A stretch of 42,492 nucleotides of DNA from Thermococcus sp. (GTDB lineage: Archaea > Methanobacteriota_B > Thermococci > Thermococcales > Thermococcaceae): positions 1 to 42,492 of the forward strand of contig NZ_JALUFF010000037.1 in the NCBI RefSeq assembly GCF_027052235.1, given 5' to 3'. A program made the position numbers and the translations under genes. This document shows, in pieces, positions 1 through 31,100 of this stretch. The stretch's first letter is position 1. The number at the start of each line of letters is the position of its first letter. The notes below the pieces were generated by a model that searched no databases, had not been told where the DNA came from, and worked only from the letters and a program-made list of their open reading frames with translations.

Positions 1-1662
1 CGGCGCATCTGCCACATGATAGCCCTTGAGCATCTCCGGAACAGCAGGCAGGTTGTTGTAAGTTGGAGCGCGGACCTTCCAGCGGTAGACCTTGTTCTTC
101 TCGCCGGTCATTACGTAGTGAACCACTTCACCGCGGTGGGCCTCGGTGAAGCCTAAGGCCTCCTGGTACTCGGGCAGGTTGCCTATTGGGGTGAAGATGT
201 CCCCATCGGGCATCTGGTCTATCAGCTGCTCCACTATCCAGAGGCTCTCGAAGAGCTCGTCCATCCTGACGAGGACCCTCGCCAAAACGTCGCCCTCCTT
301 GTAGACGGGAACCTTGAAGTCCACCTCGTGGTAGGCCATGGCGGTCTTAACGGCCTGATCCTTCCTCACGTCAATCTTCCTTCCGCTCGCGCGAGCCGTC
401 GGCCCGAGGACTGAGTAGGCCTTTGCCACCTTGTAGGGCAGTATTCCCACCCCCTCAGCGCGCTTGATGAAGGTGTTGGTGTTCAGGGCTATATCGAGGA
501 ACTTCTTCGTTCCCTCGCGGATCTCCTTAACAACCTTTAGGACTTCCTCCTTTCTGTAGTCGAGGAGGTCTCTCCTGACACCGCCGACGATGTTCATACC
601 GTACTGCTTCCTGTTGCCGGTTAAGCGCTCAACGAGCCACATCACCGGCTCGCGGATGCGCCAGGCGTGCATGAAGCCTGTGTCGTAGCCAACCAGATGC
701 GCCGCTATGCCGACCCAGAGAAGGTGGTTGTGAATCCTCTCAAGCTCAAGGAGCAGGGTTCTGATGTACCTGGCCCTGTCGGGTATTTCTACATCCGCAA
801 GCCTCTCAACGGCCATCGCGTAGCTGACCGAGTGCTGGTAGCCGCAGATACCGCATATCCTCTCGGCAAGGAAGAGCACCTGGTTGTAGGTAAGCCTTCC
901 TTCGCCGGTCTTTTCAATGCCGCGGTGGGAGTAGAAGCCGCGGTAGTCGACATCAACGATCTCCTCACCCTTGACGAAGAGCCTGAAGTGGGCCGGCTCC
1001 TCAATACCCATGTGGGCGGGCCCCATTGGGACCAGCGTTGTCCCCTCTGGGGTTTCCCTGTACTCGGGCTTCGGCTCCGTTATCGGTGAGTGCCTGTAGT
1101 CCATGTCCTTCCTGAGCGGGTAAACCCCGTTGGGCCAGTCTTCCGGCAATATAAGCCTCCTCGGGTCGGGATGGCCAACGGGCTTGAAGCCGAGTAAGTC
1201 CTTGACCTCTCTCTCTATCCAGAGTGCAGCCGGAAGCTTTGCCGCGACGCTCGGAAAGCTCGGGTCGTCGGCTGGAGTGTAGACCTTGAGGAAGACCCAG
1301 TAGTTCTCGTCCATCTTGAAGGGCTCAACCTGGACGTTCAGGAAGGGCATGTAAGCGAAGTGGCCGTTGAGGGGTCTCTCGTCCGTTCCAACTGCCGTTG
1401 ACATGTGGGTCTCCTTGAACTCAGGGTGGTTGTGCCACCAGAGTACCGCCTCCGGGAGAACCCCCCTGTCTATCACGAACATGTACTGCCCGTAGGTCAT
1501 CCTCTTGCATTCCCTTATGTGCTCCTTGAAGGCCTCGTAAAAGTCCTTGAGGCCCTTTCTTTCGGCCAGTACTTTTTCCACGTCGGCCTTTGCACAGCGG
1601 CCGTCCTCACAGGCCTTGCATTCAAACTCGAAGTGAGCCTCCAAATCCTTAGTTCCCACCAT
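1..1662 (-). CDS. hycE: Membrane-bound [NiFe] hydrogenase large subunit, fused NuoC/NuoD (HycE-like), partial
   Basis: Catalytic subunit of the formate hydrogenlyase-type hydrogenase, expected to make H2 on the cytoplasmic face of the membrane arm. The window holds residues 1-554; the C-terminus with the second nickel-binding CxxC lies beyond the left edge. Residues 1 to about 185 resemble NuoC (30-kDa subunit) and the rest NuoD (49-kDa), the fusion typical of HycE. The first nickel ligand motif is seen as RICGICG with C270 and C273, so this is a hydrogenase and not a complex I subunit. An N-terminal Cys group (C15, C18, C23) may bind a metal; that is inference. The start ATG follows GGTGGTGAAAG, and the RBS overlaps the stop of the NuoH-like gene. 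Confidence 0.93.
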   Translation of the reverse strand, partial: MVGTKDLEAHFEFECKACEDGRCAKADVEKVLAERKGLKDFYEAFKEHIRECKRMTYGQYMFVIDRGVLPEAVLWWHNHPEFKETHMSTAVGTDERPLNGHFAYMPFLNVQVEPFKMDENYWVFLKVYTPADDPSFPSVAAKLPAALWIEREVKDLLGFKPVGHPDPRRLILPEDWPNGVYPLRKDMDYRHSPITEPKPEYRETPEGTTLVPMGPAHMGIEEPAHFRLFVKGEEIVDVDYRGFYSHRGIEKTGEGRLTYNQVLFLAERICGICGYQHSVSYAMAVERLADVEIPDRARYIRTLLLELERIHNHLLWVGIAAHLVGYDTGFMHAWRIREPVMWLVERLTGNRKQYGMNIVGGVRRDLLDYRKEEVLKVVKEIREGTKKFLDIALNTNTFIKRAEGVGILPYKVAKAYSVLGPTARASGRKIDVRKDQAVKTAMAYHEVDFKVPVYKEGDVLARVLVRMDELFESLWIVEQLIDQMPDGDIFTPIGNLPEYQEALGFTEAHRGEVVHYVMTGEKNKVYRWKVRAPTYNNLPAVPEMLKGYHVADAP

Positions 1663-1665
1663 CTT

Positions 1666-2586
1666 TCACCACCCCATGAACGCCATCGCGAGTATTATAA
1701 TCCCGGCAAAGAACGCCCTCGTGTTCATCTTGACGACATGGTCTATTCTGAGCCTTGCGTTCGTCGCTTCGAGCGCCGCTATGACCGGGTAGAACGACAC
1801 CGTCAGGATGAACTGTAAAGCTAAAGCGAGCGCTGCCCTCTCCGGCGTGCCTATCGGGCCGAGCCACGGGAGCGTCAGCAGGCTGACGAAGAACCACAGC
1901 AGGGTGAAGCGCTTGATGTGTATGGCGTAGTAGAAGACACCGAGGAGCCTTCCGCTGTACTCGGTGAGAGGGCCGCCGATTACCTCCTGCTCGGCCTCGG
2001 CTATGTCGAAGGGCACGAAACCGCTCTCGACGTAGAGAGCGTAGGCGAGCAGGATGTAGGTCAGTATAACCGAGGGCGTCGCGTGGAGCTTCGCTATTAT
2101 GTCGGCTATGTTAAGCGAGCCCGCGTTGTAGGCGAGGACGCCGTAGAGTATGGCTATTAGTGGCTCGACAGTGAGAACTATCTGCATCTCCCTCGCTGAA
2201 CCGAGGTGACTGAAGGCGTTCTGGACGCTCAGTCCTGCGAACATCAGGGCGACGCTGACCATCAGGATGACGTAGAAGAAGACCACTAAGTTGAAGCCGA
2301 AGTCCACTGGGACCACGTTGCCGTAGGGGAGCAGGAGTGCAGCTGATATTGCCGAGGCGAGGGCTATGTAGGGTGCCCACGTGAAGAGGGTGCTCTTGGT
2401 CGACCTGACGGACGGGAGCGCGAAGAGCTTCTGGAGGTCGTACCATGTCTGCATGAGCGGTGGTCCGCGCCTGTACTGGAGGCGGGCCTTCACACGTCTC
2501 GCTATACCGTCCAGGTAAGGGGGCAGGAGCAGCATTATCAAGATGCCGGCGAGGCTGAAACCGAGTTTAACGATGTCGAGCGCCAT
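1666..2586 (-). CDS. hycD: NuoH/HycD-like membrane subunit of formate hydrogenlyase-type hydrogenase
   Basis: A 306-residue polytopic protein that should anchor the hydrogenase peripheral arm to the membrane, as NuoH (ND1) does in complex I and HycD in E. coli formate hydrogenlyase. Family features are the early segment around ARLQYRRGPP (residues 34-43) and the acidic loop near ESGFVPFDIAEAEQE, characteristic of the quinone-site loop of NuoH relatives. The start at 2586 is preferred over in-frame GTG 2595 or ATG 2592 because GGTGAT lies exactly 4 nt upstream, the spacing used by neighbouring genes. The stop overlaps the RBS of the hydrogenase large subunit, so the two are probably translationally coupled. 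Confidence 0.92.
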   Translation of the reverse strand: MALDIVKLGFSLAGILIMLLLPPYLDGIARRVKARLQYRRGPPLMQTWYDLQKLFALPSVRSTKSTLFTWAPYIALASAISAALLLPYGNVVPVDFGFNLVVFFYVILMVSVALMFAGLSVQNAFSHLGSAREMQIVLTVEPLIAILYGVLAYNAGSLNIADIIAKLHATPSVILTYILLAYALYVESGFVPFDIAEAEQEVIGGPLTEYSGRLLGVFYYAIHIKRFTLLWFFVSLLTLPWLGPIGTPERAALALALQFILTVSFYPVIAALEATNARLRIDHVVKMNTRAFFAGIIILAMAFMGW

Positions 2587-2596
2587 TTTCATCACC

Positions 2597-4591
2597 TCAC
2601 AGCGCCATGAGTATTCCTATGACGGCCCCAACGACGATCAGGGCTATCACCACGAAGGTTCCGAGCCTTATCCCTGGGAGCACGTCGCAGGCTATCCTGA
2701 GGAACCTGATGAGCGGTTTGAGTGCTTCTTCGTCGGCGTTGAGAACCCGGCCCCTCCTGAGGTCGTCGAGGGTCTCAATCTTAGTGTATGGGGTGTCGAC
2801 TATCTTGACGAAGTAGCTGGCGATCCACATGTATCCCCTGACTATGTAGTGGATTATTCCCTCGCCGATCATGTAGAACCAGTCGCTGAAGCGGTAGAAG
2901 GAGCCGATCTTCTCCTCGTACTTGATGTAGTAGCCCTCCGAGCTCACCCTGTACTCGTCCTCGTTCAAAGCTGTTGTTCCGCAGTCCCAGGGCGTTACCT
3001 CCTTGCCGTATTCGGGCCTAAAGCTCAGGTAAAGGCCAACCGCTATGACTGCCACGAGGACTATGAAGAGCACCGGGCTGAAGAGCACCGAGCCAAAGCC
3101 TATCCTGTAAACGCCGTCCTTTATTGGAGCGTTGAAGATGTTGAGGATTCCGGTTACCGTTCCCGGGAAGACGCCTATCAAGAGTGTCAGACCTGCTAAA
3201 ATCCACTGGCCCAGGAGCATCGTTCCGGGCACTTCTCTGACTTCCCTGTATCTCTTCATCTCGCCGCCGAACTGGGTTCCGTAGAACTTGACGAATGAAG
3301 CGAGCGTTGCCGCGCTGATGAAGACCGCCAATAGGGCTCCAAAGGCCAGCAGGAAGTCCTCTGACTGGTAGCCGGCAACGTAGATCAGCCACTTGCTTAT
3401 GAAGCCGTTGAAGGGTGGAACTCCCGCTATTGCCAGCGAGCCGAAGAGAGCCGCCAGGGCAGTCCACCTCATCTGCCTTCCGAGACCGCCGAGCTCCTCA
3501 AGCTCCACTGTTCCAGTCCTGTACTCAACCGCTCCAGCCGAGAGGAAGAGGGAGCCCTTGAATATCGCGTGGTTGAGTGCGTGGAAAAGCCCGGCGAAGG
3601 CTCCGAGCGCGCCTACAGCAGCGAGGGCACCTCCCTTCGGTATGAGGGCCATGCCTATGCCTATGCCGAGCCAGATGTAGCCCATCTGACCGATGCTGTG
3701 GTAAGCCAAAAGCCTCTTCGCGTTGGTCTCCTTGAGGGCGTAGAGCGTTCCAACGGTCAGCGTTGTCGCACCGAGGAGGGCTATGGCTATTCCGAAGATG
3801 TAAGTAGTTCCAACGAGACCCCAGACGAGTGCGATCAGGCCGTAGAGTGTAACCTTCTCCATTGCACCGGCCATAATAGCCGAGACGCTGGTCGGTGCAG
3901 CGCGGTAGGTTTCAGCAACCCAGAACTGGAAGGGCACTATTCCCGCTTTTGCCATGAACGCTATCAGGAGAAGTCCGCCGAAGACAATCTTGGTATGAGC
4001 TGGAGCGCTCGCGAGGGCTGTGGCGATGTTGTCGAAGCTGAGCTTTTCAAAGCTCCCGACGAGTGAGTAGGCCGTACCGAGTGCCAAGAAGAGAGGTATC
4101 GTGTCGAGGAAGTGCATAGTGATGTAGTACTTGATGCTCGCCCCAACGTCCCTGGCTTTCTCGCTGAAGAACACCAGTATGAACGAGCTGAGCGTCATAA
4201 GCTCCCAGCTCATCACGAAGTACTCCATGCTGTTTACCGTAACCACTAGCGCCATGCTCGCGAGGAAGGTGTTGTAGGCTATTGCGTACACCCAGCCCTT
4301 GCCGGTTTTCTCGAAGATGTCCATGTAGCTTATCGCGTAGAGCGAGGCTGCCGTTCCAACGATGCCGATTATCAGGAGAAAGACGTTGGATGTAGCGGTG
4401 ATGTGGAGGGGTATTCTGTAGAGATTCAGCCTCTCGGGACCGTTCGTGTAGACGTTGTAGACCTCCCCGAGAAGCGCGAGGGAACCTATGAGTGCCATGA
4501 AGCTCGAAGCTTTTACAGAGGCCTTGTAGTCCTTAATGAAGCCGAGCAGGCCACCGATGATGAACGCTCCGAGGGCGTATTCCATGAACAT
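2597..4591 (-). CDS. NuoL/HyfB-like proton/sodium-antiporter subunit of hydrogenase membrane arm
   Basis: A 664-residue membrane protein of the NuoL/MrpA/HycC family, expected to move ions across the membrane when formate oxidation is coupled to H2 production. Visible motifs include WVAETYRAAPTSVSAIMAG, YHSIGQMGY and NHAIFKGSLFLSAGAV, which carry the conserved Lys and His residues of the antiporter half-channels. It is longer than the roughly 480-residue core and ends in a hydrophilic stretch (about residues 520-640) followed by a last membrane helix, as in HyfB/HycC. ATG 4591 has GGTGAT 5 nt upstream; an in-frame ATG 6 nt further on is spaced less well. The RBS overlaps the upstream gene's TGA. 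Confidence 0.92.
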   Translation of the reverse strand: MFMEYALGAFIIGGLLGFIKDYKASVKASSFMALIGSLALLGEVYNVYTNGPERLNLYRIPLHITATSNVFLLIIGIVGTAASLYAISYMDIFEKTGKGWVYAIAYNTFLASMALVVTVNSMEYFVMSWELMTLSSFILVFFSEKARDVGASIKYYITMHFLDTIPLFLALGTAYSLVGSFEKLSFDNIATALASAPAHTKIVFGGLLLIAFMAKAGIVPFQFWVAETYRAAPTSVSAIMAGAMEKVTLYGLIALVWGLVGTTYIFGIAIALLGATTLTVGTLYALKETNAKRLLAYHSIGQMGYIWLGIGIGMALIPKGGALAAVGALGAFAGLFHALNHAIFKGSLFLSAGAVEYRTGTVELEELGGLGRQMRWTALAALFGSLAIAGVPPFNGFISKWLIYVAGYQSEDFLLAFGALLAVFISAATLASFVKFYGTQFGGEMKRYREVREVPGTMLLGQWILAGLTLLIGVFPGTVTGILNIFNAPIKDGVYRIGFGSVLFSPVLFIVLVAVIAVGLYLSFRPEYGKEVTPWDCGTTALNEDEYRVSSEGYYIKYEEKIGSFYRFSDWFYMIGEGIIHYIVRGYMWIASYFVKIVDTPYTKIETLDDLRRGRVLNADEEALKPLIRFLRIACDVLPGIRLGTFVVIALIVVGAVIGILMAL

Positions 4592-4597
4592 CTCGCA

Positions 4598-6034
4598 TCA
4601 CCTCATAAACCCGATCTTCATGACAACGTTCAGGGTGACCCAGGGCGCTACTATGCCGATGAGAATCAGCGTTATCATCACCGCGCACATCAGCTTGGTC
4701 GAGTGGCCTTCCGCTGCTGGCTCTGGCTCGCCGAAGAACATCCTATTGAACCACAGGAGTACCACAACTAAGAATATGGCAGCATCAAAGAGAACCGTCC
4801 CCGGGAAGAGCCATGAGGCTACGCCCTGGGCGTGTCTGGTGCTCATTATGGTGAAGGCCTTGCTGAAGAACAGTCCTAGTGGTAGAACTCCAGCGAGGCC
4901 GAGGAAGCTCAGGAACCAGCCAATGCTCGCCCACGGGAGACTCTTCCTTATGCCCTTTATCCTGCTGAAGTCCGTTGTTCCGAGGGAATAGGCGAAGGCC
5001 CCAACGCTCAGATACGCCAGCGCCTTGACGAAGGCGTGGTTTACCACTTGGTAAACTGCAATCTGAAGGCCCTCAACGTGGCCGAGGAGCGCGTAAGCCA
5101 GGATTATGTACGCAACGCCCGCTTGAGCTATGGTAGAGTAGGCAATGAGCTTCTTACCGTCGGTCTGGAGCGGGTAGTAGATCATCATCAGAATTATCAG
5201 CGCCACCGTGAGTAGTCCTAGGAGCCAGAAGTCGTCCTTGCCCGGGTTCATGTACTGTATGACCCTGAAGAGCATGAAACTCCCGAGCGGGACTATTGAG
5301 GCAGAGTGTATATACGCTGAAGCCGGAACCGGGCCGGCCGTTGCATCTGGAAGCCAGGAGTAGAAGAACAGCTGGGAGCTCATAGCCAGCGCCGCGAAGA
5401 TAAGCAGGGCAAACGCTGTGTCCTTGGTTGACTGTGCTACTGAGCCCATCTTTGCCAGCTCCTGAGAGTTCCCCAGAACTGCACTGGCTCCGAGAATCAG
5501 GAATACCGCCAAGTTCAGCACGAGGAAGCCCTTGATGGCTGGCCCTTTGGCGTTTCCGTAGAAGTCAACGAGGTAGAGCAGGGCTATCGCCATCAGTTCG
5601 AGGGCAACCAGGAACTGGATGAGGTTCGTTGAGTATATGAAGACCATTGAGGAACCAGTCAGCAGGCCGAAGAGGGCGTAGAACCTACCCTTGCCGCTCT
5701 CAAGTGGAAACGACCTGTTGGTTGAGCTCATGTAGTCCGCGGTGTAGAGGACTATCAGGAAGCTGACGAGAATGGACGTGAAGCCCATGATGACGGAGGC
5801 GATATCGATGCTCAGGCCGAAGACCTCACCGAGGTTGCCCCCGCTGGTGTAGGCGTAGTGATAGACCTTCCCTGCCCCTCCCTGGAAGAAGTCGTAGGTT
5901 CCGTAGGCGTTTATGAGGAGGGCGATGCCGATTATCGTCGAGGCCACTGCATCGGCGGCTCTGCCCTCAAGTTTGAAGATGAGCAGCAGCAGGAACGGGA
6001 GCAAGGACGATGCAAGGAAGATTTCTCCGTTCAC
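4598..6034 (-). CDS. NuoN/MrpD-like antiporter subunit of hydrogenase membrane arm
   Basis: A 478-residue membrane protein of the proton-conducting antiporter superfamily and the second ion-pumping subunit of the cluster. Motifs: a conserved Glu in VALELMAIALLYLVDF, the loop WLPDATAGPVPASAYIH, the segment YSTIAQAGV and NHAFVKALAYLSVGAF with its conserved Lys. The start is GTG at 6034 with GGTGAT 5 nt upstream; no in-frame ATG is better placed. The 53-bp gap to the ferredoxin subunit is the largest inside this operon and carries a T-rich stretch, a TATA-like sequence and a SurR-consensus site. The membrane arm may therefore have its own promoter. Confidence 0.92.
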   Translation of the reverse strand: MNGEIFLASSLLPFLLLLIFKLEGRAADAVASTIIGIALLINAYGTYDFFQGGAGKVYHYAYTSGGNLGEVFGLSIDIASVIMGFTSILVSFLIVLYTADYMSSTNRSFPLESGKGRFYALFGLLTGSSMVFIYSTNLIQFLVALELMAIALLYLVDFYGNAKGPAIKGFLVLNLAVFLILGASAVLGNSQELAKMGSVAQSTKDTAFALLIFAALAMSSQLFFYSWLPDATAGPVPASAYIHSASIVPLGSFMLFRVIQYMNPGKDDFWLLGLLTVALIILMMIYYPLQTDGKKLIAYSTIAQAGVAYIILAYALLGHVEGLQIAVYQVVNHAFVKALAYLSVGAFAYSLGTTDFSRIKGIRKSLPWASIGWFLSFLGLAGVLPLGLFFSKAFTIMSTRHAQGVASWLFPGTVLFDAAIFLVVVLLWFNRMFFGEPEPAAEGHSTKLMCAVMITLILIGIVAPWVTLNVVMKIGFMR

Positions 6035-6050
6035 CTTTCATCACCCGTTG

Positions 6051-6067
6051 GTTTTTAACCCTTGGTT
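6051..6067 (+). promoter_or_regulatory. SurR-consensus site before the membrane-arm genes
   Basis: The sequence reads GTT-TTT-AAC-CCTTG-GTT, an exact match to the extended SurR consensus GTTn3AACn5GTT known from Pyrococcus furiosus. It lies in the gap between the ferredoxin subunit and the antiporter-like gene, about 17-33 bp before the GTG start. Its centre overlaps a minus-strand TATA-like sequence (GGTTAAAAACC). Binding is inferred from sequence only. Confidence 0.6.
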
Positions 6068-6087: not shown

Positions 6088-6588
6088 TCAAAGGACGATG
6101 AGGGCCCTCTCGCCCTCACCCTTCTCTGCCGAGCTCTTGAGGTTCGCTACTATCTTGCCCTCCCTGTCCCAGAGGACGTCGTTTATCTCCCCAAACTTCA
6201 GGGCCTCAGTTGGACAGGCTGAGACACATGCAGGAAGAAGGCCTTCCGCCCTTCTGTCGGCACAGAGGTCGCACTTGTCCATGATCTTGTTCTCCTCGTC
6301 CAGCTTGGGAACGCCAAAGGGACAGGCAACGGCACACATGAGACAGCCGATACACTTGAGCGGGTCGAAGGCAACCGCTCCGTCTTCATCCCTGAAGAGC
6401 GCTCCAGTTGGACAGACGTTCAGGCAGGGAGCCTTTTCACAGTGCCTGCAGTTGAAGGGAACCGTAAAGAGGTCGGGGAACTCGAAGACCTTGATGCGCG
6501 CTTCACCGTGCGTCATTTCACAGGCCACTTCACAGGCTTTACACCCTATACAGCGCTTATAGTCAAGGAAAATCTTCTTGTGGGCCAT
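6088..6588 (-). CDS. fdhB: Ferredoxin-type [4Fe-4S] electron-transfer subunit (HycB/FdhB-like)
   Basis: A 166-residue iron-sulfur protein that should carry electrons from the molybdopterin subunit towards the hydrogenase. Four Cys groups are visible: CIGCKACEVAC near the start, CRHCEKAPCLNVCPTGAL, CIGCLMCAVACPFG, and CDLC followed by CVSACPTEAL. That is the four-cluster DMSO-reductase beta-subunit/HycB arrangement. The start at 6588 (MAHKK) has GGTGG about 5 nt upstream; the in-frame GTG at 6597 would sit on the RBS itself. The gene follows fdhA by 10 bp. No signal peptide is seen, so the protein is cytoplasmic. Confidence 0.92.
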   Translation of the reverse strand: MAHKKIFLDYKRCIGCKACEVACEMTHGEARIKVFEFPDLFTVPFNCRHCEKAPCLNVCPTGALFRDEDGAVAFDPLKCIGCLMCAVACPFGVPKLDEENKIMDKCDLCADRRAEGLLPACVSACPTEALKFGEINDVLWDREGKIVANLKSSAEKGEGERALIVL

Positions 6589-6598
6589 CTCAACCACC

Positions 6599-8659
6599 TC
6601 ACTCCTCCACCTTCTCGACCTTGGCAGCTACGGCCTTCAGCTCGGCCATCTTGGTCTTCTCGTGTATCTCGTCCAAGGTCAGGAAGTTGGCCTGCCAGTG
6701 CCACGGCATCGCTATGACCCCTTCCCTGATGTGCTCGGTAACCTCCGCCCTGACGAGGACGCTTCCGCGCCTCGTCGAGACCTTCACGAGGTCGCCAGTC
6801 TTTATTCCAAGTTTCTTGGCGTCCTTTGGGTTTATCATGACGTACTCCTCGGGCCAGCGCTTCTTCAGGCTCGGGCTCTCAAAGGACATGCTCCCGGTGT
6901 GCCAGTGGCCGACGAGCCTGAAGTTGGTGAGCCAGAACGGGTACTCCTCGTCGGGCATCTCCGGTGGCTCGCGCCAGCTGACGGGCTGGAGGTGGGCCTT
7001 TCCGTCGGACGTCTTGAAGGCGGTCTTGAAGAGAACCTTCGTTCCCTCTCCGGGCTCACTGCACGGGAAGAAGCAGCCCTCTGGGTGCTCGGCAAGGTAT
7101 TCGGGCGTTGCCCCCTTGAAGACGGGTATGACCTTGTTGATCTCCCGGAGTATCTCGTCCGGATGGCTGTACTTGAAGTACTCACCGAGGCCCAGCTCTT
7201 TAGCGAGCTCCACAATGATGAGCCAGTCGGGCTTCGCCTCACCCGGTGCCTCAGCGGCTTTGTAGGTTCTCTGGACTCTTCTTTCAGCGCTTATTGCCGT
7301 TCCCGTCTTCTCGAACCATGCAGCGGCTGGAAGAACGATATCGGCGTACATGGCCGTCTCGGTGAGGAATATGTCCTGCACGACGAGGAAGTCGAGCTTC
7401 TTGAGTTGCTCGCGAACCCATCCGCTGTTGGGCATTGACTTGGCTATGTTCCCACCGACGATGTACATCATACGTATCTTGTTGCCTATCTCCCTGACCA
7501 TCGTTGTCAGGTCGAGGCCGACCCAGTCCGGTATCGGGAAGCCCCAGAGTCTCTCTAGTTCAGCCCTCGCTGCCTCGTCAGTGACAAGCTTTCCGGTCGG
7601 GAGCTTGTTCGGGGCTATACCGCTCATCGCAGCACAGAAACCGCACTGCGCTCCGGGGAAGACACCGCTCCAGACACCTTCCCTGCCGATGTTGCCTGTT
7701 ATCGCTATGAGGTTCGCTATGGCAATGGCCGTGTTCAGACCGTTCACATGCTGGTTCATACCCTCGTTGACGAGGAAGGCGGTCCTCTTTGTTGCGATAA
7801 GTCTAGCGGCCTTCCTTATGTCCTCGGCTGGAACACCGCTTATCTTCTCGGCCCACTCCGGCGTGTAGTCCTTAACCGACTCCTTAAGCCCTTCAAAGCC
7901 AACGGTCCTCCCCCTGACGAAGTCCTTGTCATAGAGCTCCTCACTTATAACCACGTTGAGCATGGCGAGCGCTATCGCCAGGTCGGTTCCCGGATAGGGC
8001 TTGAGGTGGAGCGAGGCGTACTTGTGGCCCCTCGTTGAGCGCGGGTCTATAACGATGAGCGGGGCGTTGTTGTCGAGGATGGCCTTCTCGATGTACTGCC
8101 CGAAGAGAACCGGGGCCGTCTCGGCCGGGTTGTGTCCCCAGAACACCACGAGCTCGGCCTTGGCTATGTCCTCGAAGGGGTTTGTGGCTGCTGCGCTTCC
8201 GAACACCACGGTTCTGGCGGGACTGTTTGAGTACTGGCAGTACCTTCCGGGGAAGTCGAGGTGGTTGGTCCCTATGGCCTTGGAGAGCTTGTGGACGAGG
8301 TAGTTCTCCTCAAGGGTTATCTTCTCGCTTCCGAGGAAGGCTATCGCCTCCGGGCCGTAAGTTTCCTTGATCTCCTTAATCTTGCTGGCGATTATCCTGT
8401 AGGCCTCTTCCCAGCTTATCTCCTCGAACTTCCCCTCACCCTTTTCTCCAACGCGCCTGAGGGGCTTCTTAAGCCTCTGGGGACTGTTGATGAACTGGTA
8501 GGAGGCAACCCCCTTGGGACAGAGCTTGCCCCTGTTGGCTATCGTCGGGTGGTCGTAGTCAAACTCTATCCGCCTGATGTAGCCGTTGGCGCTGACCGCG
8601 TAGAAGCGACAGCCCACGGAACACCACGGGCATACAACAGGCACTAACTTCTCTGCCAT
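6599..8659 (-). CDS. fdhA: Formate dehydrogenase-type molybdopterin oxidoreductase, catalytic subunit
   Basis: A 686-residue member of the DMSO reductase/formate dehydrogenase H superfamily, probably oxidising formate with a tungsten- or molybdenum-bis-pterin cofactor. The N-terminal [4Fe-4S] ligands are C10, C13, C17 and C47. The likely metal-ligand residue is C141 in GRYCQYSNSP, at almost the same position as Sec140 of E. coli FdhF, but the following residue is Gln142 instead of the His usual in formate dehydrogenases. The C-terminal region carries the MopB-binding fold (for example KTGDLVKVSTRRGSV). There is no Tat signal. The start at 8659 is 4 nt after GGTGAT; GTG 8668 and ATG 8665 are less well placed. 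A relative with a different substrate is possible because of Gln142. Confidence 0.88.
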   Translation of the reverse strand: MAEKLVPVVCPWCSVGCRFYAVSANGYIRRIEFDYDHPTIANRGKLCPKGVASYQFINSPQRLKKPLRRVGEKGEGKFEEISWEEAYRIIASKIKEIKETYGPEAIAFLGSEKITLEENYLVHKLSKAIGTNHLDFPGRYCQYSNSPARTVVFGSAAATNPFEDIAKAELVVFWGHNPAETAPVLFGQYIEKAILDNNAPLIVIDPRSTRGHKYASLHLKPYPGTDLAIALAMLNVVISEELYDKDFVRGRTVGFEGLKESVKDYTPEWAEKISGVPAEDIRKAARLIATKRTAFLVNEGMNQHVNGLNTAIAIANLIAITGNIGREGVWSGVFPGAQCGFCAAMSGIAPNKLPTGKLVTDEAARAELERLWGFPIPDWVGLDLTTMVREIGNKIRMMYIVGGNIAKSMPNSGWVREQLKKLDFLVVQDIFLTETAMYADIVLPAAAWFEKTGTAISAERRVQRTYKAAEAPGEAKPDWLIIVELAKELGLGEYFKYSHPDEILREINKVIPVFKGATPEYLAEHPEGCFFPCSEPGEGTKVLFKTAFKTSDGKAHLQPVSWREPPEMPDEEYPFWLTNFRLVGHWHTGSMSFESPSLKKRWPEEYVMINPKDAKKLGIKTGDLVKVSTRRGSVLVRAEVTEHIREGVIAMPWHWQANFLTLDEIHEKTKMAELKAVAAKVEKVEE

Positions 8660-8674
8660 GGGCATCACCCTTGT

Positions 8675-8692
8675 AATGACTGACTAGTCATT
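8675..8692. promoter_or_regulatory. Palindromic operator in the fdhA promoter (site 1)
   Basis: AATGACT-GACT-AGTCATT has perfect 7-bp inverted arms around a 4-bp spacer. It lies just where transcription from the TATA box at 8711-8719 should begin, a classic repressor position. The same 14-bp core occurs before the DUF302 gene, and a weaker version before the tetR gene. It is inferred to be the binding site of the adjacent TetR-family protein. Confidence 0.75.
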
Positions 8693-8710
8693 AAAATTGG
8701 TGAACAACAC

Positions 8711-8719
8711 TTTATATAG
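8711..8719 (-). promoter_or_regulatory. TATA box of the fdhA operon
   Basis: On the minus strand this reads CTATATAAA, preceded by an A-rich BRE-like run. It lies about 55 bp before the chosen fdhA start codon. The predicted transcription start falls at about 8690, inside the palindromic operator. Confidence 0.65.
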
Positions 8720-8725
8720 TTTTTT

Positions 8726-8772
8726 TGAACAATGAAGTTCATACAGTTAAACAAACTGAGGAATGTTAAACA
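8726..8772. repeat. Inverted and direct repeats upstream of the fdhA TATA box
   Basis: Two perfect short inverted repeats lie upstream of the BRE/TATA of fdhA: TGAAC-n6-GTTCA (8726-8741) and CAGTT-AAACA-AACTG (8744-8758). The word GTTAAACA occurs at 8746-8753 and again at 8765-8772. The position suits an activator. None of these matches GTTn3AAC, so a SurR site is not claimed here. Confidence 0.4.
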
Positions 8773-8775
8773 GAA

Positions 8776-9369
8776 TTATACGCTGGCGGAAAGCTTAAGG
8801 TGGTTTATTACTGCCAAGATAACCTTCTTTAGGTAGTGCTCCCTGGAGAAGCCCAAGCACTCCCCGGCGTGGAGGTAGTGCATGAGGGAGGCCAGAAACA
8901 TCTGGAACGCTATGAGTGCGTCCTCAAAGCCCACTTTAACGTAAGCCGTTATCCTCCTCGCCCCCTCCCGAAGAAGCTCGGAACAGGACTGGCTGTAAAT
9001 ATCGTCGAGGCTCTTCATCCTTTTCCTCACAGAAAGCATGTGGAAGAACATCTCGGCCCTGTAGTTCTCGGAGTAAAAGTCGAGAAACTCCCTCCCAATC
9101 TGGAGGAGGTAGCTCTCAAGGGTCGGGTAGCTGAGGGTTATGTATGGGTCATTCAGAGAGGGCATTGCCATTATCGGCATAACCTCGAAGGCAAGCTCCT
9201 TGATCAGGTCATCCTTGCTTTTGAAGTAGAGGTAGAACGTCCCCTTGGCGACGCCAGCCTTTGCAACAATCTCATCTACCGTCGTTTTATCAAAGCCCTT
9301 TCTAGCAAAAAGCTCCATGGCAGCTGAAACGAGCTTTTCCCTTGTTTTCCCCGGGGACTTCGTGGACAT
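8776..9369 (-). CDS. TetR-family transcriptional regulator
   Basis: A 197-residue repressor of the TetR/AcrR family. The N-terminal helix-turn-helix is clear: AAMELFARKGFDKTTVDEIV, then AGVAKGTFYLYFKSKDDLI (about residues 16-57). The C-terminal helical domain, expected to bind a ligand, is not recognisable to a subgroup. The start at 9369 has GAGGTG a few nt upstream; the longer in-frame extension to 9480 crosses the promoter and is rejected. The gene lies upstream of fdhA on the same strand, 116 bp away, with a separate promoter. Shared palindromes before fdhA, before DUF302 and, in weaker form, before this gene suggest it represses all three, including itself. The ligand is unknown; formate or a redox signal would be guesses. 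Confidence 0.92.
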   Translation of the reverse strand: MSTKSPGKTREKLVSAAMELFARKGFDKTTVDEIVAKAGVAKGTFYLYFKSKDDLIKELAFEVMPIMAMPSLNDPYITLSYPTLESYLLQIGREFLDFYSENYRAEMFFHMLSVRKRMKSLDDIYSQSCSELLREGARRITAYVKVGFEDALIAFQMFLASLMHYLHAGECLGFSREHYLKKVILAVINHLKLSASV

Positions 9370-9380
9370 TCTGACACCTC

Positions 9381-9394
9381 TGACCGCACAGTCA
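9381..9394. promoter_or_regulatory. Degenerate TetR operator before the tetR gene (site 3)
   Basis: On the plus strand TGACCGCACAGTCA matches 10 of 14 positions of the TGACTGACTAGTCA core seen at the other two sites, with the same 5-4-5 geometry. It lies 11 bp before the tetR start codon, downstream of the likely TATA box (CTTAAATC on the minus strand, about 9427-9434). The weaker match would fit weaker autorepression. Confidence 0.5.
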
Positions 9395-9492
9395 TTGACC
9401 CATTGGACAGTTGTGGGTATAGAAGGATTTAAGCTTTTCTGTGGACGGGAAGGGAACCAAAAAGTTGAAAATAAAGACAAGTAATAGTTCGA

Positions 9493-9876
9493 TCAAAGAA
9501 CCGCCGAGATTATCTTCTCGTCTATCTCCGCGACCTCTGAGAGGAGTTCGCCCAGTTCACCGGGAACCATCTTCGCGAAGAGCCCCATGTTCATGCCGAA
9601 GACGTATATCCCGTCGGGCATCTCTATAACCGAGAACTTGCAAGGCATCATAGCTGAAATCCACCTGTTTTCAGGCTTGCTGATGGCCTTAGTTGCAAAG
9701 TCCCTGTTGCAGACCTCGATGATAGCAAACTGAATTCCAACCTTCTCCCTGAAGTCGTACTCCCCTATAACCGTCCAGCCGACTTCTTCGGTCTTCTTCT
9801 TCAGCCTCTCAAGGGTCTCCTCAAAGCCGTACCTGCTCCTAACCCCCTTCACCATCTGCCTCATTACTTCCTCCAT
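9493..9876 (-). CDS. DUF302 family protein
   Basis: A 127-residue protein resembling the DUF302 family, recognisable from the pattern FEETLERLKKKTEEVGWTVIGE and the later VEVCN/MPCKFSVIEMPDGIYV-like core. The biochemical role of DUF302 is not established. No signal peptide or membrane segment is visible. The start at 9876 is 4 nt after GGTGAT, as at fdhA; the ATG at 9885 lies on the RBS. The gene is divergent from the hyp cluster and shares its intergenic region. A perfect copy of the TetR operator core lies directly upstream, so it is probably co-regulated with the formate hydrogenlyase operon. Confidence 0.82.
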   Translation of the reverse strand: MEEVMRQMVKGVRSRYGFEETLERLKKKTEEVGWTVIGEYDFREKVGIQFAIIEVCNRDFATKAISKPENRWISAMMPCKFSVIEMPDGIYVFGMNMGLFAKMVPGELGELLSEVAEIDEKIISAVL

Positions 9877-9885
9877 GGAAATCAC

Positions 9886-9901
9886 CTGACTGACTAGTCA
9901 G
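9886..9901. promoter_or_regulatory. Palindromic TetR operator before DUF302 (site 2)
   Basis: CTGACT-GACT-AGTCAG has perfect 6-bp inverted arms and the identical 4-bp spacer GACT found at site 1. It lies 10 bp before the DUF302 start and just upstream of the TATA box of the divergent hyp operon, so a bound repressor could affect both directions. Confidence 0.75.
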
Positions 9902-9907
9902 AGCAAG

Positions 9908-9944
9908 AAATATAAATCCTTTTCGTGAACCTTTGGTTGATAAC
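9908..9944 (+). promoter_or_regulatory. Divergent promoter with SurR-consensus site before the hyp cluster
   Basis: A TATA element (AAATATAAAT, 9908-9917) can be read in both directions. At 9928-9944 the minus strand reads GTT-ATC-AAC-CAAAG-GTT, an exact extended SurR consensus. The site lies downstream of the plus-strand TATA and ends 2 bp before the first ATG, overlapping its RBS-like GGTTGAT. That position suits repression of the HypC-like gene, or activation in the opposite direction. Confidence 0.6.
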
Positions 9945-9945
9945 C

Positions 9946-10203
9946 ATGGCCCTGATGCTAGCGGGTAGAGTGGTTGAGGTCAGGGGAGATATGGCGGTAG
10001 TGGATGTTGAAGGCCAGCTTAAGGAGGCTAAGCTCGACTTCATCAGGGACGTCAAGCCGGGCGACTACGTAACGATTTACTACGGCATAGTACTTGAGAA
10101 GGTGAGCGAGGAAGATGCCAGGGAAACGCTGGAGCACTGCTCCTATCACAGGGGAGCAAAGGTCGAGATGAAGTTTTCGCTGGTTGAAAACCTGAGGTTT
10201 TAG
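9946..10203 (+). CDS. HypC-like protein lacking the conserved Cys2
   Basis: An 85-residue protein of the HypC/HupF fold. The core pattern GRVVEVRGDMAVVDVEGQLKEAKLDFI, then VKPGDYVTIYYGIVLEKVSEEDARETLE, matches the beta-barrel and C-terminal helix of HypC. Canonical HypC begins Met-Cys, and that Cys binds the Fe(CN)2CO intermediate and HypD. Here the N-terminus reads MALMLAG at either plausible start (9946 or 9955), so the Cys is missing. A lone Cys77 (EHC) is present near the C-terminus. The gene stands first in the hyp cluster, 44 bp before a canonical hypC. It may be a partner or regulator rather than a carrier; that is inference. Confidence 0.8.
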   Translation: MALMLAGRVVEVRGDMAVVDVEGQLKEAKLDFIRDVKPGDYVTIYYGIVLEKVSEEDARETLEHCSYHRGAKVEMKFSLVENLRF

Positions 10204-12287: not shown

Positions 12288-12347
12288 CACCAAAGGTTCA
12301 AAACTCCCCTATCGTTTTCAACTTTTGGTTTTGGAAACCTATAAAGC
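12288..12347 (+). promoter_or_regulatory. hypF promoter with two SurR-consensus sites and TATA box
   Basis: The proximal site, 12314-12330, reads GTT-TTC-AAC-TTTTG-GTT, an exact GTTn3AACn5GTT. A distal site at about 12288-12304 reads GTT-TTG-AAC-CTTTG-GTG on the minus strand, one mismatch from the extended consensus with the GTTn3AAC core exact. The TATA box (CTATAAAG) is at 12339-12346, about 9 bp after the proximal site. This upstream placement is that of SurR-activated promoters in Pyrococcus, so activation is the likely outcome. Confidence 0.65.
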
Positions 12348-26547: not shown

Positions 26548-26573
26548 GTTCTAAACCTTTGGTTAAAAAGGTT
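26548..26573 (-). promoter_or_regulatory. nsr promoter with SurR-consensus site
   Basis: GTT-CTA-AAC-CTTTG-GTT on the plus strand (26548-26564) is an exact extended SurR consensus. The minus-strand TATA-like CTTTTTAAC (about 26563-26571) lies immediately upstream in the direction of transcription, so the site falls between the TATA and the start point. That is a repressing position, which matches relief of repression by sulfur in Pyrococcus. Confidence 0.65.
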
Positions 26574-28151: not shown

Positions 28152-31100
28152 TCAGGAAACTCCCGCTCCCTCCAGGAGGTCAATGGCCTCCTTGAGGTAG
28201 GCGTAGGCCTTTCTGAGGTGTATGAAGACCCTCGGATCGCCGAGGTTGAGGACTACCGCACCTCCTGAGGCGGTGGTGGCTTCCCGGTACTCTGCAATCG
28301 CCATCTTGTAGAGCTCCTCCGCCTTCTGGAGGGTCTCGTTGTCTATTCCGGCAGTGAGGGCCTTCTGGTACAGCTTGCTGAAGGTCTCGTTGTACCTGAC
28401 GAAGTTGTGGTAGTACATGTAGTTGAGCATCATGAGGGTCATCGTCGTTGTCCTGAGGACTGAGACCGGGTAGGTGTACTTAACCTCAATCGTACCGACG
28501 CTGTGGAGCTGGACGGTCACCTCAAGGACCTTGGTGGTTCCGTCGTCCTCGACGACCTTGTAGTCAAGGACGTCCGCGCCAGTTGCGGTAACGGTGTAGT
28601 TATGTATTCTCGACGGTATCGAGACGTAGAGGGTAGCCACCGTTCCGTGGTCGCCTTCGAAGGTGATGTTGACGACACCACCCTCGTTGGTCTCGTTTCT
28701 CGTGATGTTGAGTATCTTGACCTCACCGTTGAGGGCGTTGACGACCTCTGCACCAGTCTCCTTAGCCTCCTCAATGGTCTGCTCCGTGACAGGTCTCACG
28801 GCAAAGACACCGGCGTTGTTGGAGTCGTTGTAGTCGAGCGGGCTGGTGACCTTTATCATGTACTCGTGCAGTTCGGTATCGGTAATCGGCAGTGGGATGC
28901 TGTCCACGAGGGTTGAGTTGGCTGGCAGGACTATGTTGTAGGTAAGGAACGGTATCTCAGCTCCGTCCCTGTAGAACTCCACGGTTATCGGTGCATCGAC
29001 CTCTCCGAGGTTCTTGATTGCGTAGGTTATGTTGAGGTCGCCTCCGAGCTCAACGTCGCCGGTGTAGGTAAAGGTTGTGACAGCGATGTCGGTCTTTGCC
29101 TGGGCAGGCAGTATCGTCACCGGAACCGTCATGAGTGGCCATCTCTTGATTGTGCCGAGCACGAGGAAGCCCTTGAACGGGATGGTAGTGTTGGTTATGT
29201 TGTAGTAGGTCTCTATAACGTAGTCACCGTCACCGGTGTATGTGACGTTGTAAACGCCAATCCTGTCGGTGGGCACTACCTCGGTTATGTACATGCTGAA
29301 GGTCGCTTCTCCCGGGGCTTCGTTGTCCCATGAGTATGCCTCAAGGATGTACTGGCCGGGCATTGGGTTGTCCACGTGGATGTGCTCGTTGGTTCCCCAT
29401 GTGGTTGCAGAGGCAACCAGCTCAAGAGTTCCACTGTTGTTGTAGTAGAGGAAGAAGTCAACGTCCAGTATGTTGGGTGGGAATACTGACTCCGTGGTTA
29501 TGTCTATGCTCATCGTGTCGTTGGGCACCGTGAAGTTGAAGTAGGTGCTGTTTCCTGTCGGCGGAGCAACGATGTTGAGGTACGGTGTCGTCTCGGAAAT
29601 GTAGCCGAAGGGCTTGTCCGTCCTTATCGGGCCGAGGAAGTCTGGGACATGAACGGCTATCTCACCAGTGCCGGTGGAAGTGTTAGCGAAGACCTTCCAC
29701 TCCATCGGCTTCGTGTAGGCGACACCAACATGGCCGGCGAACTTCATTGGATAACCGAAGAGCGGGTACAGGAAGATGTTGTGTAGCACTATGGAGTGCA
29801 GTCCCTTGCTCGCGGGTGCCTTCACTATCTCCTCGAAGTAGCTTCCTGTCTCGGTGCACGGCTCGAAGAAGCCTCCCCCTGCATAACCCTCGCATCCCTG
29901 TGCGATTTCCTCAAGGGTGTAGGGTCCAAAGACGCTGGCGTTGCTGACACTCCAGCTGTCAACGAGCGGGCCGAGGAGGTGAACGTTTATGTCACCCGGC
30001 TGATCCCACATCAGGTCTGTGACTATGACCCCGTTCTCGTGCTCACTGTTGAAGTAGAAGAACCTCCAGTCACCGGTCTCGTATCTCCATCCCCAGTCGT
30101 AGACGCCGTAGACGTAGGAGTTGTCGTAGAGGCCGTTGCTTGTCCTGTTCTCTCCACCAAAGGCGAAGTCCGCGCTCGGAGAGGCGACGACAACGCTCAC
30201 AGGTATTGTCGACTCGTGGTTGCCGTACTTAACGTAGATTGCCCCCTCGTAGATTCCGTAGGGTGTGTCTTTCGGAAGGGTTATCGTGGCGGTGAATGTG
30301 AGCTTTCCGGTGAAGTTGGTCGTGAAGCTCTGCTTTCCGTTGACCGTGACCCACTTCCAGGGCTCGCGCTTGAAGAACTCAACCTTTATGGTCGCCGGAT
30401 AGTTCTCGTCCGGGTAGACCCTGAGGAGGACGAGCCTGCCGTTGGCCCTCTTGAGCGGATCGTGGACGGTGAACGAGACTATGTTGCCCTCCTTGCCGTC
30501 ATCGTTAACGCGGGTCATCTCTCCTGTGGTCGGGTCATAGAAGTAGACTCTGACGAACGGGTTGGCAAAGTAGGTCGAGTACATCGTTACCTTCATCAGT
30601 TCTGCATCAGACGGTATGTACGGGGTCAGGTCGATCCAGACGCTACTCTCATTGCTGACGTTGACGTTGAAGTCCTGTTCGCCTATCTTTTCAAAGACCA
30701 TTGGCTCAACGGTGACCTTCTTTATGAAGCCGTAGTTGGTCAGCGTGAAGGTCTTGCTGGCACTTTCTCCCGGATACATCACGTTCGGGAATGCCGGATA
30801 GTCGGTCTTGCCCGGCTGCCAGCTCGTGGGCTGTATGAGGATTCCGTTCTTGCCGAGTGCCAGCTCAACTGCTCTTGTCGCGTTGAGGTAGCCAGCACCC
30901 TGTCTGAAGACGTCGGTGTTTATGTTCTCTGCGGAACTCTTGAGGATGTCCCTAACTAGATCACTGGTTGGCCAAGTACCGTGAGCCTTGTAGTAGGCCT
31001 CGTAGACGAGAGCCGTTATCCCAGCCGCGACCGGGGTTGCCATCGAGGTTCCGCTGAAGAGCCACTGGGCGTACATTCCGTTGAGGTGGTAATTGACGTA

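Follow-up and report, generated by a model that had tools for sequence, protein, structure and literature searches.

A TetR-family protein and a shared palindromic operator as the probable local switch of a formate hydrogenlyase module in Thermococcus

The data discussed below make it quite probable that the TetR-family protein encoded beside a formate hydrogenlyase (FHL) operon of Thermococcus sp. acts as a local repressor of its own gene and of a dedicated FHL module. The arrangement of its operators is conserved across the family and, very probably, represents a real but ordinary repressor circuit, one that had been suspected before and had not been described; in type, it amounts to a classical local TetR circuit with an unusual set of targets. 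The DNA analyzed here, referred to as the window, is a stretch of 42,492 nucleotides from contig NZ_JALUFF010000037.1 of the assembly GCF_027052235.1, which represents a genome of 1.89 Mb. The family comparison covered 94 genomes of Thermococcaceae, with the motif counted at no more than one mismatch, and a wider profile search for TetR covered 115 genomes of the phylum. A scan of the window for bacterial sigma-70 promoters was set aside because the host is an archaeon. The relevant features of the window are these:

1..6034, minus strand: hydrogenase part of the FHL operon, with two antiporter-like subunits, a NuoH-like subunit and the [NiFe] large subunit; cut off by the end of the window
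6088..6597, minus strand: fdhB-like 4Fe-4S protein (domain matches)
6599..8659, minus strand: fdhA, catalytic subunit of the FHL formate dehydrogenase (TIGR01591, 2.3e-195, slightly under the curated cut-off)
8677..8690, minus strand: operator O1 in the fdhA promoter, exact 14-mer, reading TGACTAGTCAGTCA towards fdhA; conserved in 40 fdhA promoters
8710..8719, minus strand: predicted TATA box of the fdhA (FHL) operon (sequence; aligned TATA boxes and spacing)
8776..9369, minus strand: gene of the TetR-family regulator (Pfam TetR_N, 3.9e-20; AlphaFold2; PDB matches)
9381..9394, minus strand: operator O2 before tetR, TGACTGTGCGGTCA, 11 nt from the tetR ATG
9493..9876, minus strand: gene of the DUF302 protein, ATG start (PF03625, 2.3e-06)
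9887..9900, no strand assigned: operator O3, common to the divergent DUF302 and hypC1 promoters, exact 14-mer
9908..9917, no strand assigned: TATA-like element, usable by DUF302 (minus) and possibly by hypC1 (plus) (sequence and alignment)
9928..9944, minus strand: SurR motif in its extended form, GTTATCAACCAAAGGTT, upstream of the TATA box of DUF302 (motif scan of the window)
9946..10203, plus strand: hypC1, HypC-like, without the N-terminal Cys (PF01455, 1.3e-16)

The window also contains, at 28152-33929 on the minus strand, a very long open reading frame of 1925 aa.

The first-pass annotation had reported an identical 14-mer at 8677-8690 and 9887-9900 and a 10/14 match at 9381-9394, and all three are indeed present. 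The 14-mer, TGACTGACTAGTCA, has no further exact copy in the whole 1.89-Mb genome, where some 0.014 copies would be expected by chance against the two observed. At fdhA, direct reading extends the palindrome to TAATGACT-GACT-AGTCATTA at 8674-8693, so that the arms, TAATGACT and AGTCATTA, are 8 bp long and not 7 bp as first given. Comparison of orthologous sites yields the symmetric core TGACYN4RGTCA, which also fits the site before tetR. A genome-wide scan finds this core at six positions, three of which fall within these 1.2 kb. The other three positions are on contigs C62, C25 and C36, and the match on C62 was rejected as an operator, being internal to a purF-like open reading frame (the name is read from the sequence).

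The candidate reader of these sites is clearly a TetR_N protein. Its TetR_N domain scores 71.8 bits, compared to a curated cut-off of 24, and is the sole TetR_N match in the whole assembly, which is 95.5% complete, in accordance with the earlier proposal that one TetR protein goes with the three related palindromes. The AlphaFold2 model (pLDDT 92.6) predicts an all-helical fold with a C-terminal ligand domain, as is typical of the TetR family, and its top PDB matches are TetR regulators, at TM values of about 0.6-0.7; at the sequence level, the palindromes at neighboring promoters and at its own promoter are likewise a family trait. Conservation of the recognition helix was dropped as an argument, since AGVAKGTFY is generic to TetR_N.

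The layout of the promoters points to repression. In the fdhA promoter, the TATA box at 8710-8719 is followed, about 28 nt from its start, by the operator, then by the ribosome-binding site and the ATG at 8659; the 28-nt distance recurs in 22 of the 39 fdhA promoters scored. The transcription start expected from this TATA box falls at the edge of the operator, which bears out the earlier placement of the site at the predicted start. The DUF302 promoter is arranged as the SurR motif (9928-9944), the TATA-like element (9908-9917), the operator (9887-9900) and the ATG (9876), with the operator positioned where archaeal transcription should start, and the tetR operator sits in the leader, 11 nt ahead of the ATG. 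Because the operators at fdhA and DUF302 lie downstream of the TATA box and over the predicted start, the usual position for repression, a dimer bound there would block RNA polymerase. Most members of the TetR family are repressors.

The site at 9887 had been assigned to the DUF302 promoter alone, and this assignment is incomplete. The distance from O3 to the ATG of the divergent hypC1 (9946) is 45 nt, here as well as in most loci, and in the DUF302-less loci L064, L068 and L085-L087 the operator is kept in the hypC1-tetR interval, at 45-51 nt from the start of hypC1, L084 having a version with three mismatches. Since the operator persists where DUF302 is missing, O3 appears to serve hypC1 too, so that hypC1 is likely to be a fourth target of the operator; the TATA-like element at 9908-9917 may then be used in both directions. 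The regulon as originally drawn, with FHL, DUF302 and autoregulation, is supported by the three related palindromes and by the co-occurrence of motif, TetR and FdhA, and is incomplete inasmuch as it lacked hypC1. HypC1 proteins of at least 60% identity and the TetR clade of at least 68% identity occupy exactly the same 26 genomes; DUF302 is found in 20 of these, always along with this TetR clade and hypC1, and, at the threshold used, in none of the remaining 74 genomes.

HypC1 itself belongs to the HypC/HupF/HybG family (PF01455, 61 bits compared to a cut-off of 28.5; TIGR00074, 53.3 compared to 48) and yet lacks the hallmark of the HypC chaperones, a Cys right after the initiator Met: it begins with MALMLAGRV, none of the 26 orthologues has a Cys in that position, and the only Cys is at residue 65 in all 26, whereas the neighboring HypC2 begins with MCLA. 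The DUF302 protein has two Cys residues, in EVCN-like and MPC motifs, in every aligned orthologue, its nearest solved structure being 1q9u.

DUF302 may be under a second control. The extended SurR motif, GTTn3AACn5GTT, occurs five times in the window (6051-6067, 9928-9944, 10183-10199, 12314-12330 and 26548-26564) compared to 0.15 occurrences expected, and the copy at DUF302 is placed, as in SurR targets, just upstream of the BRE/TATA region. Among the loci with DUF302, the short motif GTTn3AAC is present in 18 of 20 and the extended form in 6; in DUF302-less loci whose operator persists, the SurR motif is lost. None of the 40 fdhA promoters contains the extended motif. Within the FHL operon, 20 of 35 loci conserve an extended SurR motif in the gap that separates fdhB from the hydrogenase genes. 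In most loci, hypC2 and hypF are preceded by SurR motifs of their own, so that SurR seems to drive the general maturation genes, HypC1 being apparently tied to FHL; the same observation weakens the idea, considered at one point, that the whole hypC1-C2-D-F stretch is a target of TetR.

At hypC1, the operator is located upstream of the TATA-like element, which leaves the sign of regulation at this gene uncertain. Archaeal activators such as SurR also act from this position, and TetR could accordingly be viewed as an activator, or a dual regulator, at no fewer than one of the promoters. The proteome of T. onnurineus, in which Fdh1 and MhyI go up on sulfur whereas HypF and HypE go down (PMC4463584), is compatible with such a role. 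Considering, however, the downstream position of the operators at fdhA and DUF302, activation seems unlikely, and we favor repression.

The family comparison links the palindrome to this particular protein. A TetR orthologue is present in 39 of the 94 genomes and the motif in 40; the two occur together in 39, both are missing from 54, and the motif stands alone in a single genome, G061, which is 73% complete and split into 230 contigs (Fisher p ~1e-25, without phylogenetic correction). The TetR orthologues fall into three groups by identity and the genes mostly move as a cassette, hence the co-occurrence is not phylogenetically independent. The profile search of the 115 genomes of the phylum again retrieved TetR in 39, which belong to three genera of Thermococcaceae; in a search of a collection of genome contigs with the TetR-alignment profile, only four loci were from Thermococci and the remainder were generic bacterial TetR helix-turn-helix matches. 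Group-4-like FdhA co-occurs with TetR and the motif across the family: all FdhA of at least 59% identity are in TetR-bearing genomes, G061 excepted, and no FdhA copy of 48% identity or less in the 94 genomes has the motif nearby.

Conservation of the palindrome upstream of fdhA in other Thermococcus genomes, proposed earlier as a check, is borne out in the FdhA clade that goes with TetR: in 40 of its promoters, the operator lies 16-22 nt before the fdhA start. Over these 40 promoters, the operator retains on average 1.81 bits per position as compared to 0.42 in the 16 nt upstream, and it remains much better conserved than its flanks even in genomes whose TetR is only 36-44% identical. The site is also retained in G004, where tetR is some 13 kb away from fdhA (L102). 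The one exception to the rule is a second Group-4-like fdhA of G089, at 60% identity (L107, G089:C2:151968-160025), which has no operator; the truncated fdhA promoter of G061 is uninformative. At the other end of the circuit, TGAC-N6-GTCA precedes the start of 30 tetR orthologues, and the exceptions, with no recognizable self-site, include three promoters of the 42-46% identity group and two of the 37% group.

A rather improbable alternative is that the palindromes are sites of some other regulator controlling FHL, with the neighboring TetR acting elsewhere. Its support comes from the CO dehydrogenase (CODH) operons. A TGACTN4AGTCA-like site, with no more than one mismatch, occupies a constant place upstream of cooF-cooS in 8 of the 10 genomes that have this CODH type and TetR, as well as in 2 of 7 in which no TetR was detected (Fisher p ~0.06); the palindromes are at L103:4001-4014, at L105:618-631 and in L216-L235. 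The two genomes that have the site but no detected TetR are G031 (99% complete) and G063 (85% complete), so that a sequence of this kind may also be recognized by some other regulator, and the CODH palindrome may reflect either a wider reach of the TetR regulon or a second regulator that prefers a comparable site. For the FHL sites, this alternative is countered by the joint presence of motif and TetR in 39 genomes, against a single unexplained case, by the motif before tetR's own start in 30 loci, and by the lack of the motif near FdhA in genomes without this TetR. Upstream of the CODH palindrome, a AACCTTTGGTTTCACACTTTTGG-like block is conserved (L216-L228), even where the palindrome is missing; it is a possible activator site.

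That the repeats go back to common descent without selection, or to chance, within a recently duplicated segment is scarcely credible: synteny of the complete cassette in 26 related genomes would fit this, but between groups with about 60% FdhA identity the spacer is randomized (0.42 bits) while the site keeps about 1.8 bits, and where DUF302 is absent the SurR motif is lost and the operator kept in the same stretch, a conservation profile that strongly disfavors this explanation.

Returning to repression by TetR, we infer from the sequence data that the protein binds the operators, that it represses rather than activates, and that a signal releases it. A TetR homodimer would bind TGACYN4RGTCA as a local repressor; at fdhA and DUF302, the bound dimer would interfere with the recruitment or escape of RNA polymerase, the site in the 5' leader of tetR would provide autoregulation, and a single operator would serve both genes at the divergent DUF302-hypC1 promoter. 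A ligand or a modification would free the dimer from its operators, whereupon the FHL operon and its helpers, the Cys-less HypC1 and the DUF302 protein, would be made together. Cys130 is invariant in 38 TetR orthologues, which allows a thiol-based signal.

As to the nature of the signal, formate is probably not a simple inducer, judging from published expression data. The FHL genes of the window, including a [NiFe] large subunit in which the motif RICGICGYQH can be read, agree in gene content and tetR position with the Group 4 fhl operons, described as fdhAB with hydrogenase and antiporter-like genes, no formate transporter in the operon and a tetR upstream in the same direction (PMC10025317), and may belong to this group, the operon running off the window end. 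By gene order, the operons of T. onnurineus, T. litoralis and T. paralvinellae are likely to be orthologous to it. The Group 4 fhl operon of T. paralvinellae dropped on formate (PMC10025317), Hyg4-I of T. onnurineus (fdh1-mfh1, TON_0261-0289) was lower on formate or CO than on yeast extract-peptone-sulfur (PMC5316973), and fdh-mhy of T. litoralis rose more than 10-fold on peptides and went down with sulfur (PMC2432063). Given also that this FHL type lacks a gene for a formate transporter (PMC10025317), the earlier suggestion that the circuit gates formate respiration appears doubtful.

Among known systems, the closest type is that of the autoregulated local repressors TetR, QacR and AcrR, which likewise combine a TetR_N helix-turn-helix and an all-helical ligand domain with a palindrome over neighboring and own promoters; here, in contrast, the promoters are archaeal TATA promoters and the targets are an energy-conserving FHL, a HypC-like protein and a DUF302 protein. 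The palindrome is unrelated to the motif of the SurR regulon, which recurs ahead of hypC2, hypF and the TATA box of DUF302, as well as in the gap between fdhB and the hydrogenase genes. The CODH of T. onnurineus, a parallel hydrogen-producing cluster, is reportedly regulated by CorQR. It is also regulated by EnfR, whose footprint on a 36-bp repeat resembles neither TGACYN4RGTCA nor the CODH palindrome (PMC10570040). FadR of Sulfolobus acidocaldarius (PMC6449355; PDB 6el2, 6en8) is an archaeal TetR protein too and is among the better matches in sequence and fold; it differs in regulating fatty-acid metabolism, and the similarity beyond the helix-turn-helix is weak.

The view that TetR control of this operon is undescribed stands in part. 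The neighborhood is not new: a review of 2023 pointed out that, in Thermococci, Group 4 fhl operons have a TetR/AcrR gene some 350 nt upstream (PMC10025317), in all likelihood the same gene and operon as here. That review mentions neither an operator nor DUF302, HypC1, the co-occurrence or the SurR motif before DUF302, and no operator, binding study or mutant for tetR-fhl was found in the open-access literature, to which the survey was confined, subscription papers being outside its scope.

In a broader reading, which we put forward tentatively and consider somewhat less than an even bet, the TetR circuit would define an accessory module of FHL, consisting of a Cys-less HypC paralogue and a two-Cys DUF302 protein that are found only with FHL and TetR, would be made on demand and would be integrated with SurR at DUF302, and the same regulator would have been recruited to the CODH operon in some carboxydotrophic relatives. 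If so, hydrogen production from formate and from CO would share one switch in these organisms. The control of this archaeal FHL type, the mechanism of its tetR included, has been stated to be unknown (PMC10025317); the site, the targets and one sole candidate regulator can now be named precisely enough to be tested directly, and the operator circuit points to two uncharacterized FHL-linked proteins, HypC1 and the DUF302 protein. As the FHL of Thermococcus is studied as a hydrogen-producing enzyme, its switch would be of practical use as well.
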